The translations under genes were made by a program, and so were the position numbers. This document shows, piece by piece, positions 4,866 through 9,341 of a DNA stretch of 9,606 nucleotides. Source of the stretch: a bacterium. GTDB lineage: Bacteria; RBG-13-66-14. The stretch covers positions 1 through 9,606 of the forward strand of contig DATKYS010000099.1 of assembly GCA_035528375.1 (NCBI GenBank), in the 5' to 3' direction. The notes below the pieces were generated by a model, which saw only the letters and a program-made list of their open reading frames with translations, ran no database searches and had not been told where the DNA came from. The first letter of the stretch is position 1; every line of letters begins with the position of its first letter.

Positions 4866-4903
4866 CCCTCACCCCCATCCCCTCTCCCCATGGGAGAGGG
4901 GGG
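4866..4903. repeat. CCTCTCCC-type hairpin repeat, inverted copy
   Basis: A perfect 10-bp stem CCCCTCTCCC (4879-4888) / GGGAGAGGGG (4892-4901) closes a three-base loop, preceded by CCCTCACCCCC. This is the family seen at 1830 and 1947 in reverse orientation. It lies 25 bases beyond the stop of the - strand 58-residue gene, so the hairpin could mark the 3' end of that transcript, although no T-run follows on the - strand. Confidence 0.75.
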
Positions 4904-4927: not shown

Positions 4928-5104
4928 CTACCGCTCCCGCTTGCGGGCCACCAGCCACACGATAATGCCGATGACCACCACCGCGGGCAGGGCGTAGATG
5001 ACGAGGAATACCAGGCCCTTGAAGAGCATCCACGCGACCAGAATGGCCAGGATCAGGATGCCGAAGGCGATGAGCGTGCCCTTGCTACCAGTCAGAGGTT
5101 TCAT
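4928..5104 (-). CDS. 58-residue small membrane protein, third of a tandem trio
   Basis: This short gene reads MKPLTGSKGTLIAFG at the start and ends VIGIIVWLVARKRER before TAG (4928-4930). It has two hydrophobic stretches, about residues 10-28 and 31-53, and a basic tail R54-R58, suggesting two transmembrane helices in the inner membrane. A strong Shine-Dalgarno AGGGAGG (5109-5115) precedes ATG with good spacing, which is the main support for a real gene of this size. It lies 22 bases after the stop of the preceding small membrane gene. It shares with it the pattern W..[FL]K..., a mid-helix Pro, VVV, and a C-terminal R-K/R cluster. Function unknown. Because of its size it is easily missed by gene callers. 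Confidence 0.75.
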   Translation of the reverse strand: MKPLTGSKGTLIAFGILILAILVAWMLFKGLVFLVIYALPAVVVIGIIVWLVARKRER

Positions 5105-5126
5105 CTTTCCTCCCTGGGCGGCGGTG

Positions 5127-5342
5127 CTACCGCCTCTTCGCGCGGCCGATGAGGTAAAAGACGACGGCGACGACGACGAGCGGCCCGAGAATCCACTTTA
5201 GAAGAAACCAAAACAGGCCGAGGAACAGGCCGAACACCCCGGCAATGATGCCTAACAGCGCAATGACGCCTATTCCGACCAGCGCCAGCGGGAACATCAA
5301 CCCCGCCAAAAGGCACCCGGCACCCTCGGAACCTCCGGTCAT
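5127..5342 (-). CDS. 71-residue small membrane protein, second of a tandem trio
   Basis: The protein starts MTGGSEGAGCLLAGLMFPLA and is almost entirely hydrophobic from residue 9 to 66, fitting two or three membrane helices, with a basic end GRAKRR. The segment GVFGLF...FW...LLKWILGPL.VVA.VFYLI closely parallels the upstream 64-residue protein. ATG at 5342 was chosen over a longer frame because it overlaps the upstream TGA as ATGA (5339-5342), indicating coupling, and is preceded by AAAGGA. The longer frame would add 30 polar residues from within the upstream gene. Cys10 follows a Gly, but no basic region and hydrophobic stretch come before it, so it is not a lipobox. Function unknown. Confidence 0.8.
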   Translation of the reverse strand: MTGGSEGAGCLLAGLMFPLALVGIGVIALLGIIAGVFGLFLGLFWFLLKWILGPLVVVAVVFYLIGRAKRR

Positions 5343-5533
5343 CGCTTTTTCCTTTCCCGGCAGCGCACCACGATGTAGACGATCAACCCTACCAGTAAAA
5401 GCGGCCCCAGGAACCAGCGCAGGAAAATCCACAGCGACCAGAAGAAGGAGCTGGTCAGCGTGAATACGCCGACGACGGCCAGGAGACCGATTAATACTTT
5501 CTCGCCGATGGACATGCCGGAAGAACCGCTCAT
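5339..5533 (-). CDS. 64-residue small membrane protein, first of a tandem trio
   Basis: The protein starts MSGSSGMSIGEKVLIGLLAV and has two hydrophobic segments (about 12-26 and 29-57) with a strongly basic tail RCRERKKR. Its second half FFWSLWIFLRWFLGPLLLVG matches the next gene's FW..LLKWILGPLVVVA, so these are paralogues. ATG at 5533 is preferred to an in-frame ATG at 5614, which would prepend 27 polar residues unlike the siblings. The Shine-Dalgarno near 5533 is weak (GGGGG). The gene sits 103 bases after the stop of the CBM9/DUF5916 gene, in the same direction. No clear promoter or terminator was seen in that gap, so co-transcription is possible. Function unknown. Confidence 0.8.
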   Translation of the reverse strand: MSGSSGMSIGEKVLIGLLAVVGVFTLTSSFFWSLWIFLRWFLGPLLLVGLIVYIVVRCRERKKR

Positions 5534-5636: not shown

Positions 5637-7856
5637 TCAGATGTCCAACGCGAAGGTGAGCTTCAGGAACAGGATGTGCTCCGCCTCCTCGCGGGTCGTG
5701 GGCTGGAGGAGGTTGTACACCAGGTAAACGTAGCTGCCCGGGAGGTAGTTATAGGCCAGAAGGGCGTTGAGCTCCTCCCGTCCGCCGAAGGTGTTCCGCT
5801 GGCCGAAGACCCGCAACCACACCTCGTCTACGAACTTCGCGGTCATGCCGAGGTTCACGAACCAGTGCTGGCCCTCCCAACCGAGATCGTCCATCCCCGG
5901 GGCGCCGAGGATGTCCTTGTCCGCCAGCTTCTCGAACTCCACCCCCCCCTCGAAGGTCAGCCCCGAGAACAGCGCATAGGAGTACTCCAGCTCCCAGTAG
6001 TTGAGGTCGTACCCGTAGAAGTCGCCGCCGACGTAGGTCAGCCCCAGGCCCGAGTAGCGATCCAGGTTGAACCCCAGGGTGCCGGAGTAGGTACCGTTCT
6101 GGTAGGAGAAACGCTCGGTCTCGGTTATCTCCTCGGTGTCGTAGTTGTTCCAGTAGCTGCCGTAGAGCGTCAGCCCCCAGAGGAAGTCCACCCCGACGTA
6201 TCCGCTCCACCCCTGGTAGGCCAACAGTTCGTCGGTGTTCTGGTCGTAGTGGTAGTAATCGCCGCCGACGTACACGTCCTTGAACCACCCCTCCCAGATG
6301 CCCCACAGGTACTCCACGTACGCGTACCCGCCCAGGGTGTCCAGGTCCGTGTAGGGCAGGTAGCCCATCTCGGCGTCGAAATTGGGCTGCACCTGCTGGC
6401 CCTGGATGCCGATCGTCCAGTTGGGGTCGTTCCACTCGGCGCCCACGTACCAGGCGTAGTCGTCCACATCGCGCTCGGGGTTGGTCTCGTAGGCGAACTC
6501 ACCCGTGGCCTGGAGGCCGAAATCCGTGGCCCAGCTGAAATCCAGCCCCAGCGTGGTGTCGTTGAGCGGCTCGGCTGCCGTCACGTACTCCCAATCGAAG
6601 GGTCCGTGCGACTCGATGGTCATCCGCTCGCGCTGGTACTTGTTGATGGCCGTGAGCCCCACGGCGCTGGACTCGAAGATGTCGTGGGTCAGGCGCACCG
6701 CAGCCACGTTGGCGTTGAAACGTTCCCTCCACCAGTCGCCGCGGTAGTAGGAGAGGTCGGCCTTGTCGGCCACGGTGCCCTCCACGTCGAGGAGGTAGTA
6801 GCGCAGGCCGCCGAGCTTGCCGTAGAGCTTTCCGGCGTAATAGATGTCCTGGAGCCGCCGGGAGTAGAAGAGCTCCAGCGGCAGGTCGAACAGGGATTTG
6901 CCGTCGCGGAAGAAGGGCCTCTTCTCGTTGAGGTACAGCTCGTCGCGGGAGAGGTTCAGCTCGTCCAGGTCGCTCTCTATCTGGGCGTAATCGGGGTTGA
7001 TGCTGCCCACGATGCTCATCGCCGGGAAGGGGCGGAAGTCAATGTCTATCCCGCCCGAGAAGGTATCCTCCACCCCGGTCTCGATGAGGGTGGGGTCTTC
7101 CCAGAGGATTGCGTCCTCCACGTCGTTCCACTGCCGTTTGGCCGTGCCGTAGGGCACGAAGCTGACGGTCACGGGGATCCCCAGGTCCCGGATGCCCTCC
7201 AGGCGGCCGAATTTGCTGACCTTGTAGAGGTTGGTGTCCAGGTTGCTCCAGATGGAGGACTCGTCGTTGGGAATCTCGTTGCGCCAGAAGTCTATCCCCC
7301 AGCCGTCGGTGGGGTCCACGTAGTGCAGCTCCCGCCAGGGTATTTTGAACTCGGCCACCCAGCGGTCCTCCTCGATGCCCGCCGCCGCCTTCCAGTCCCC
7401 GTCCCAGGCGCTGTCTATGTACTGGCCGTCCTGGGTGAAATAGGCGTCGTAGCGGGTACCCAGGGGGTTGACCACGAGCATGTACGCCGAGCGTCCGTCG
7501 TCGAAGGTGTCCAGAAAGATGGCGAAGGAGTCGTCCAGCCACAGGGGATCGTCGTGGTACACCATGTCGGCGACGATCTCGTCCACCTCTGTCTCGTAGC
7601 AGGCCACGCCGATGTAGAGGGCGTCCGAGTCGTAGAGCACGCGCACCAGGGTCTGCTGGGAGGCGGGCCAGGGGAGACCGATCCCGCGGTAAACGAAGCC
7701 CGTCGTCGCCTCGGCCTGCGTCCAGCCGATGTCGGTCAGGCGGCCGTCTATCAGGGGGGGAACCTGGGTCCGGACCGCCGTGACCTGGCGCGCCGAGACA
7801 CCGGTCACGGCGCACAAAAGCGCGAACAGGAAAACGAATCGTACCGTGGTCTTCAT
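5637..7856 (-). CDS. Secreted CBM9-like / DUF5916 beta-barrel-type protein
   Basis: This 739-residue exported protein has a Sec signal peptide (residues 1-22, cleavage after VSA). An N-terminal CBM9-like domain spans about 30-220: PPLIDGRLTDIGW with D37, G38 and W45, then ALYIGVACYE, DDSFAIFLDTFDDGRSAY and VNPLGTRYDAYF. A DUF5916-type region follows with NPDYAQIESD (from 287), NEKRPFF (310-316) and FYSRR. The rest alternates aromatic and polar residues as expected for outer-membrane beta-strands, ending LKLTFALDI without the common terminal Phe. Proteins of this architecture are known from several diderm phyla; their substrate is not settled, and carbohydrate binding is inferred from CBM9 alone. 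ATG at 7856 is preferred; an adjacent GTG at 7859 is also possible, and both use GGGGGT upstream. The three small membrane genes follow. Confidence 0.9.
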   Translation of the reverse strand: MKTTVRFVFLFALLCAVTGVSARQVTAVRTQVPPLIDGRLTDIGWTQAEATTGFVYRGIGLPWPASQQTLVRVLYDSDALYIGVACYETEVDEIVADMVYHDDPLWLDDSFAIFLDTFDDGRSAYMLVVNPLGTRYDAYFTQDGQYIDSAWDGDWKAAAGIEEDRWVAEFKIPWRELHYVDPTDGWGIDFWRNEIPNDESSIWSNLDTNLYKVSKFGRLEGIRDLGIPVTVSFVPYGTAKRQWNDVEDAILWEDPTLIETGVEDTFSGGIDIDFRPFPAMSIVGSINPDYAQIESDLDELNLSRDELYLNEKRPFFRDGKSLFDLPLELFYSRRLQDIYYAGKLYGKLGGLRYYLLDVEGTVADKADLSYYRGDWWRERFNANVAAVRLTHDIFESSAVGLTAINKYQRERMTIESHGPFDWEYVTAAEPLNDTTLGLDFSWATDFGLQATGEFAYETNPERDVDDYAWYVGAEWNDPNWTIGIQGQQVQPNFDAEMGYLPYTDLDTLGGYAYVEYLWGIWEGWFKDVYVGGDYYHYDQNTDELLAYQGWSGYVGVDFLWGLTLYGSYWNNYDTEEITETERFSYQNGTYSGTLGFNLDRYSGLGLTYVGGDFYGYDLNYWELEYSYALFSGLTFEGGVEFEKLADKDILGAPGMDDLGWEGQHWFVNLGMTAKFVDEVWLRVFGQRNTFGGREELNALLAYNYLPGSYVYLVYNLLQPTTREEAEHILFLKLTFALDI

Positions 7857-7897
7857 CACGCGACCCCCGGGGCTTATCGTTTGTGGAACTTTTTGGG

Positions 7898-7993: not shown

Positions 7994-8380
7994 CTACGTC
8001 CCCGCGCTCACACCACCGCCGGACGAGCAACCGGCGTGGACCTCGTAGCTGACCTCGACCTCGTAGTCCACCCTGGTGAACAGGGCGTTCCTGGCATACG
8101 CCTGACGGGCGGCTACCATGTCGGTCCCCGCTTCGAGGTAGAGGCGGTAGATCTGGCCCGAGACGTGCTCCATGCGGTTCACGTGCTGGGTGGCGTTGAA
8201 GGTCGTCACGGCCGTCATGTTGGCGCCTGGCACCAGCATGATGACGATCACCTGCGGCCGGGCGTGGTCGTGGTTGCTCGTCGTCTCGGGCGCGTCCGGA
8301 CCCCAGACCTCGCCGGAATCGGCGCCGGTCAGGAGGATCAGGGCGACCAGCGTGAAAATCGAAATCAAGACCTTCCTCAT
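7994..8380 (-). CDS. Small secreted protein resembling a free-standing subtilase prodomain
   Basis: This 128-residue protein has a signal peptide (about residues 1-20) and a short linker. A compact domain spans 43-110: PQVIVIMLVPGANMTAV, then a helix, IYRLYLEAGTDMVAARQAY, then R-N and VDYEVEV. This order (V-strand, PGA, helix, IYRL-L, AG.D...A....R.N..V.Y.E) is that of the fervidolysin/I9-type N-terminal prodomains of S8 proteases. Such prodomains fold as a small alpha/beta sandwich and inhibit or chaperone their protease. No protease domain follows: the protein ends with a tail YEVHAGCSSGGGVSAGT containing its only Cys (C118). The assignment is pattern recognition only. ATG at 8380 follows AAGGAG closely; a longer upstream frame crosses the promoter and is rejected. 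It is divergent from the radical SAM gene. Confidence 0.82.
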   Translation of the reverse strand: MRKVLISIFTLVALILLTGADSGEVWGPDAPETTSNHDHARPQVIVIMLVPGANMTAVTTFNATQHVNRMEHVSGQIYRLYLEAGTDMVAARQAYARNALFTRVDYEVEVSYEVHAGCSSGGGVSAGT

Positions 8381-8422
8381 TTCGCTCCTTCGTGGGGGTG
8401 GTTTTTCCCAACTCAAAGGATT

Positions 8423-8452
8423 AGTATACGGAAGATACCATCCGCATAGCAA
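8423..8452 (-). promoter_or_regulatory. Sigma70-type promoter for the prodomain-like gene
   Basis: On the - strand TTGCTA (8447-8452) and TATACT (8423-8428) are separated by 18 bases, giving four and five matches of six to the -35 and -10 consensus. The transcript would begin near 8415, with a leader of about 35 bases before ATG at 8380. The GTATAC core (8424-8429) is palindromic, so it may also contribute to divergent transcription of the radical SAM gene, for which no separate clear promoter was seen. Confidence 0.6.
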
Positions 8453-8468
8453 GCCTGGGAACCGAACC

Positions 8469-9341
8469 ATGGAAAACCCCGACCGCTTCAGCGACTTCCC
8501 CCCCGCGCCCCGGTTCATCCAGATCGAGACCACCACCGCCTGCAACGCCGCCTGCCCCTTCTGCCTTCAGAAGGACCTCGAGCGGGGCCCGGTGAGGATG
8601 GAGGAGCGGCTCTGGCGGAAAATCATCGGCGAGACCCGCGGCCTGGGCGTCACCTACCGCCCCTTCCTGCAGAACGAGCCGCTTTGCGACGTCCGGCTGG
8701 AGGAAATCGTCGGGTACATTAAAGAGGACCCCACGGCGCGGGTGGAGCTCAACACCAACGGCGAGCTTCTGCCCGAAAAGAGGGCGCGCGCGCTCCTGGA
8801 GCTCGGTCTCGACGAGGTCCGCTTCTCCATTGACGCCGTCTCGACCGAGGTTTACGGAATAACGCGGCCCGGCATAGACCGCGACGCCGTCTACGAGCGC
8901 GTCACACGCTTCTGCGAGCTCGCCAAGTGCACCGACTGCACCACCCACGTGCGCATGATCGAGATGCCCGAAAACGCGGGCGAGCGGGACGAGTTCGAGC
9001 GTTACTGGGAGCCGCTGGCCGACCGGGTGGAGCTCGTGCAGCTCTACCGCTGGCCCTGGTCCGGCCAGACCGAGGCCGACGTGGTCCTCAAGCCCTGCCC
9101 GAAGATTTTGGGCGAGATGTTCTTCTTCACCGACGGCCGGGCGGTGCTGTGCTGCTGGGATGTGGTGGGACGCGGCGTGATAGGCGACGCGAACCTGAAC
9201 ACCGCCCTGGAAATCTGGAACGGCCCCGTCGTGGGCGATTTGCGAAAAATCCTCGCCCGGGGCGAGCGGCGGAAAATCCACCTCTGCTCCCGCTGCGACG
9301 CCTACGGGCACCTGGACTGGAAGCCGCCGCAAAAGCGTTGA
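8469..9341 (+). CDS. Radical SAM protein with SPASM-like C-terminal domain
   Basis: This 290-residue protein starts ATG at 8469 with a weak GGGA Shine-Dalgarno (8457-8460). Upstream in-frame sequence lies in the neighbour's promoter and antisense coding region. The [4Fe-4S]/SAM motif CNAACPFC gives C25, C29 and C32. LNTNGEL (94-100) and RFSIDAVSTEVYGITRPG (108-125) are typical core strands. The C-terminus has C210 (KPCPKILG), GRAVLCCWD with C228 and C229, GDANL and HLCSRCD with C273 and C276, matching a SPASM-type auxiliary-cluster domain. A further set C139, C144 and C147 lies inside the barrel region, which is unusual. SPASM enzymes modify peptides, proteins or carbohydrates; the substrate is not evident. 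A maturase for the divergent secreted protein is only a guess. No partner gene follows. Confidence 0.9.
   Translation: MENPDRFSDFPPAPRFIQIETTTACNAACPFCLQKDLERGPVRMEERLWRKIIGETRGLGVTYRPFLQNEPLCDVRLEEIVGYIKEDPTARVELNTNGELLPEKRARALLELGLDEVRFSIDAVSTEVYGITRPGIDRDAVYERVTRFCELAKCTDCTTHVRMIEMPENAGERDEFERYWEPLADRVELVQLYRWPWSGQTEADVVLKPCPKILGEMFFFTDGRAVLCCWDVVGRGVIGDANLNTALEIWNGPVVGDLRKILARGERRKIHLCSRCDAYGHLDWKPPQKR

Follow-up and report, generated by a model that had tools for sequence, protein, structure and literature searches.

What do three consecutive, very short minus-strand reading frames (64, 71 and 58 residues) encode within the 9,606-nucleotide stretch of Coatesbacteria DNA analyzed here (hereafter, the window), and do they belong to each other, to the gene upstream of them, or to any family already described? 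The open reading frames were found just where the earlier note had placed them: gene A (5339..5533) is predicted to encode an inner-membrane protein of 64 aa that is apolar from about residue 13 to 56 and ends in a basic tail (RCRERKKR), gene B (5127..5342) a 71 aa paralogue of it, as judged from the frame, its orthologues and its homology to A, and gene C (4928..5104), which has orthologues as well, a 58 aa protein that is probably a diverged paralogue of the other two. The linkage between the frames is also as described, with the stop codon of A overlapping the start codon of B in an ATGA at 5339-5342, and with 22 bases (5105-5126) between B and C, a gap that ends CAGGGAGGAAAG ahead of the ATG of C, which is preceded by GGGAGGAAAG and has a strong Shine-Dalgarno. 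On the same strand, 103 bases upstream of A, lies the gene of a secreted 740 aa CBM9/DUF5916 protein (5637..7859; PF19313 and PF06452 both above cut-off), a protein that the note had also placed before the trio and that by its position may be part of the same module, while downstream of the trio panB is found on the opposite strand, and the genes around the trio (panB, HPPK, an aminotransferase) are of a housekeeping kind.

As the genes are very short, and as one relative has a frameshifted A and is devoid of B, the frames might be regarded as spurious or decaying, a reading whose probability we consider practically negligible and which is already contradicted by the comparisons made with the relatives. 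The frames are about 80-98% identical in two congeners over most of their length (the start of gene A being the only part of lower identity), against 55-65% for the flanking intergenic DNA, and the substitutions fall mostly at third positions (e.g., 8/1/21 over the three codon positions of B between the window and G001). Nei-Gojobori dN/dS ratios between genomes, excluding two pairs with saturated dS, were 0.14-0.30 for A, 0.11-0.28 for B and 0.13-0.45 for C, so that, where the earlier note had asked for unconserved frames or near-neutral ratios as grounds for giving up its proposal, conserved frames and ratios of about 0.1-0.45 were seen instead. The start codons of A and B and the ATGA overlap recur in G001 and G002, and the signs of selection, the conserved starts, the ribosome sites and the gene order extend over three genera, with C present also in a fourth; judged from these sequence comparisons, A, B and C are real genes.

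Whether the three are paralogues, as had been claimed, has a different answer for A and B than for C. A and B are clearly paralogous by sequence: their profiles align to each other with an E of 2.4e-13 over 48 columns, the local-shuffle z lies at 3.8-9.9, and a B-only profile picks up A at 2e-6 to 3e-10 in five genomes. The FW...[RK]W motif proposed for the pair is indeed common to both, but the spacing from FW to [RK]W is three residues longer in A than in B, and the two motifs are therefore not colinear in the strict sense. C, the more diverged of the three, is probably a paralogue too, as is better seen in the relatives than in the copy of the window. With a profile made from A and B alone, C is matched at 1.7e-4 in G003 and at 1.1e-4 in G006, and across 386 genomes every protein outside these loci stays short of 1e-3, which makes for a useful control against chance similarity between membrane proteins. 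The match of C survives composition shuffling in 4/5 C sequences (p 0.0004-0.009), while for the window's own C the local shuffle comparison with A and B falls short (p = 0.07).

The W..FK named earlier as a feature of C did not hold up, the relatives carrying WLIFS or WLIFP instead; what they keep is [KR]F.[LV]P, then a helix rich in V, then a basic tail, with the sequences reading IKFVL-PAVVVIGLVTWLVVRKRER and LRFIV-PGLVVLAVIMFFVGRKRDR where the counterpart in B is LKWILGPLVVVAVVFYLIGRAKRR. The step [KR]W-x-L-x-P, an apolar helix and a basic tail are present in A and B of all genomes with intact copies, and the counterpart in C is [KR]F-x-[LV]-P for G003, G004 and G006, whereas the window's C has IYALP; the motif, the helix and the tail, in the tandem order A-B-C, are what defines the family here, and apart from this IYALP they were found. 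Elsewhere, chance alone also yields C-profile matches at 2e-6 to 3e-4, and the case for C thus rests on the A+B profile together with synteny. One such match, in G057 (E 2.3e-6), was rejected as a family member: it lies in a much longer, multi-helix membrane protein resembling an ABC-transporter permease, and C-profile matches of about 1e-4 to 1e-6 outside the family were accordingly treated as chance membrane similarity.

The distribution of the trio is narrow. In the family RBG-13-66-14 of Candidatus Coatesbacteria, represented by the window's own genome (G000) and six relatives (G001-G006), a complete trio in the order A-B-C is found in 5/7 genomes (G000, G001, G002, G005 and G006), spanning three genera. 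Orthologues of both A and B were found in G001, G002, G005 and G006, and those of C in all six relatives. In G004, of a fourth genus, C runs into a contig end and the DUF5916 gene is truncated at the end of another contig, so that A and B may just be missing from the assembly. In G003, C is intact, there is no room for B, and A (L004:873-1050) is broken by a one-base shift, be it real or an assembly error, which suggests that the three genes may not all be required at once. G006 has A and B about 270 bases apart and has B and C overlapping instead; coupling between A and B is therefore not universal.

The trio did not turn up in the phylum's seven other genomes or in about 370 further ones (386 relatives from a wide range were searched), nor was any relative of it found on viral contigs, and within the window's own genome the A/B profile matches no other locus. 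A scan of named genomes gave matches only in Candidatus Coatesbacteria bacterium RBG_13_66_14 (MFAF01000060.1; a congener) and in the more distant MAG SMBSF40 (JAIOSI010000213.1). Across the genomes searched, the trio is thus restricted to one family of one phylum.

The earlier note recognized no family in the three proteins, and searches agree with it: Pfam, NCBIfam and PHROG at loose thresholds gave scattered sub-threshold membrane matches only, a PDB profile search gave no relative, and the literature on Coatesbacteria and on tandem small membrane proteins yielded nothing specific. Three families were considered on their weak scores, each below cut-off. SA1362 (NF041554), itself of unknown function, weakly matches 5/13 members (best E 7.2e-4), the window's A reaching 15 bits where the curated cut-off is 42. 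PspG (PF09583) is likewise a small apolar inner-membrane protein and aligns to residues 16-52 of C (14.3 bits, E 0.052); with this and the size and apolar build of the proteins in mind, one could think of a stress-response role, akin to that of PspG or of other small phage-shock proteins, in sensing or relieving membrane stress. We hold this to be decidedly unlikely, as the alignment is far below the gathering score of 25 and concerns 1/13 members, A and B being without any match to PF09583, and as there is no psp gene in the window or the scanned neighbors.

Even less probable, and to our minds very improbable, is that these are pore formers of the holin or toxin kind, such as phage lysis proteins or type I toxins. 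Short, apolar proteins with basic tails in tandem copies would certainly fit the description, and holin superfamily III (PF07332), whose members are short multi-helix membrane proteins, gives weak matches in 5/13 members, the best of them, with an E of 0.053 over the 13, being short of the gathering score; but the window is free of phage genes, viral contigs gave no relative, no PHROG is common to more than 2 of 13 members, and the neighbors are bacterial housekeeping genes. The stable vertical conservation, copies that are diverged rather than near-identical, and the lack of an Rfam antitoxin RNA (both the Rfam and the tRNA scans of the window were empty) also speak against it. A, B and C are, as far as sequence can tell, a new orphan family within a known kind, the small membrane proteins.

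Regarding topology, hydropathy shows long or double apolar segments, of about 44-60 residues in each of A, B and C, which are too long for one membrane crossing and make a two-helix hairpin with a cytoplasmic basic C-terminal tail likely; the conserved [KR][WF]-x-[LIV]-(G/A)-P step would then mark the start of the second helix. AlphaFold2 modeled A (9-63) and B (4-70) each as an unbroken helix without a hairpin, from three-sequence alignments and with a pTM of 0.40-0.46, and, a continuous helix of this kind not being physically sensible for a single bilayer crossing, the models were treated as uninformative for topology.

Could the trio work with the DUF5916/CBM9 protein, an outer-membrane-type one, as its inner-membrane partners or maturation factors? 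The two stand 103 bases apart on one strand in the window, and the trio locus is downstream of DUF5916 also in G001, G002, G003 and G006, even if in G006 a predicted membrane ORF, a small protein termed D here and more than 1 kilobase intervene. In G005, however, the trio sits at an unrelated locus, flanked by an AI-2E transporter on one side and a DUF3592 protein on the other, with DUF5916 on another contig and followed by D. Protein D is a membrane protein of 64-66 aa encoded downstream of DUF5916 in G003, G005 and G006 (L004:1047-1241 in G003; L098:4251-4451; L099:6156-6353), its stop codon overlapping the start of A in G003; at E 0.01 it is absent from the window, G001, G002 and G004, the end of the DUF5916 gene being unassembled in the last. 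Comparisons of D, as a possible further paralogue, with the three proteins of the trio gave no consistent relation and did not support this reading.

As D stays with DUF5916 in G005 and the trio is elsewhere, the trio is a unit separable from DUF5916, and the envelope role that the earlier note had thought plausible from this neighborhood loses its main support, the more so as DUF5916 homologues are widespread, and common in genomes devoid of the trio, whereas the trio is confined to one family. The search for conserved trios beside DUF5916, which the note had recommended, thus bore out the order A-B-C (5/7 family genomes) and not the invariable company of DUF5916. The link between the two is one of neighborhood only, and a working partnership seems unlikely.

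The reading we favor, to which we would give not quite an even chance, is that tandem duplication within a single Coatesbacteria family gave rise to A, B and C as paralogous inner-membrane proteins, which would be made from one transcript by coupled translation and would fold as hairpins, and which may assemble into a hetero-oligomer that regulates some membrane process. Joint assembly is suggested by the conserved order, the close translational coupling and the paralogy taken together. The hetero-oligomer would be an accessory or regulator and not an enzyme, a role assigned by analogy with small membrane proteins such as MgrB: PMC8404706 describes MgrB as a small regulatory membrane protein of 47 aa and, along with the overview PMC11539335, has known small membrane proteins mostly modulating larger partners. 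The likeness lies in being very short and apolar, and in that small regulatory membrane proteins typically modulate larger membrane proteins; MgrB differs in that no sequence relation to it was found and that it is not a tandem trio.

A bolder version, in which the three constitute a previously undescribed hetero-oligomeric membrane complex consisting of only three tandem paralogous mini-proteins and invented within one Coatesbacteria family, appears fairly unlikely. If the three do assemble, complexes composed of nothing but paralogous mini-proteins would offer a neat model of how membrane complexes originate; for now, the trio is one more orphan small-protein family. It is, nonetheless, a lineage-specific one with clear paralogy and selection, from a candidate phylum represented here by metagenome-assembled genomes only, and small-protein families of this sort are easily missed by annotation.

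Some other features of the window deserve mention. Just downstream of gene C, a scan found the stem of an intergenic hairpin (4878..4902) similar to a large family of repeats dispersed over the genome: the pattern CCCTCTCCC...GGGAGAGGG...GGTGAGGG has 138 exact matches in the 2.6-Mb genome and 0 for the reversed control. Several copies are at contig ends, so the repeat may fragment the assembly (2.63 Mb in 144 contigs). Two tandem small acidic proteins of secreted or lipoprotein-like character (123 and 132 aa; no Pfam match) are encoded at 1000-1771. Finally, a small secreted protein encoded at 7994-8491 has GEVWGP at its mature N-terminus; the codon pattern of this motif occurs once per genome in the genus, and positional relatives of the protein in G004 and G006 have, by eye, the same kind of motif also near the C-terminus.
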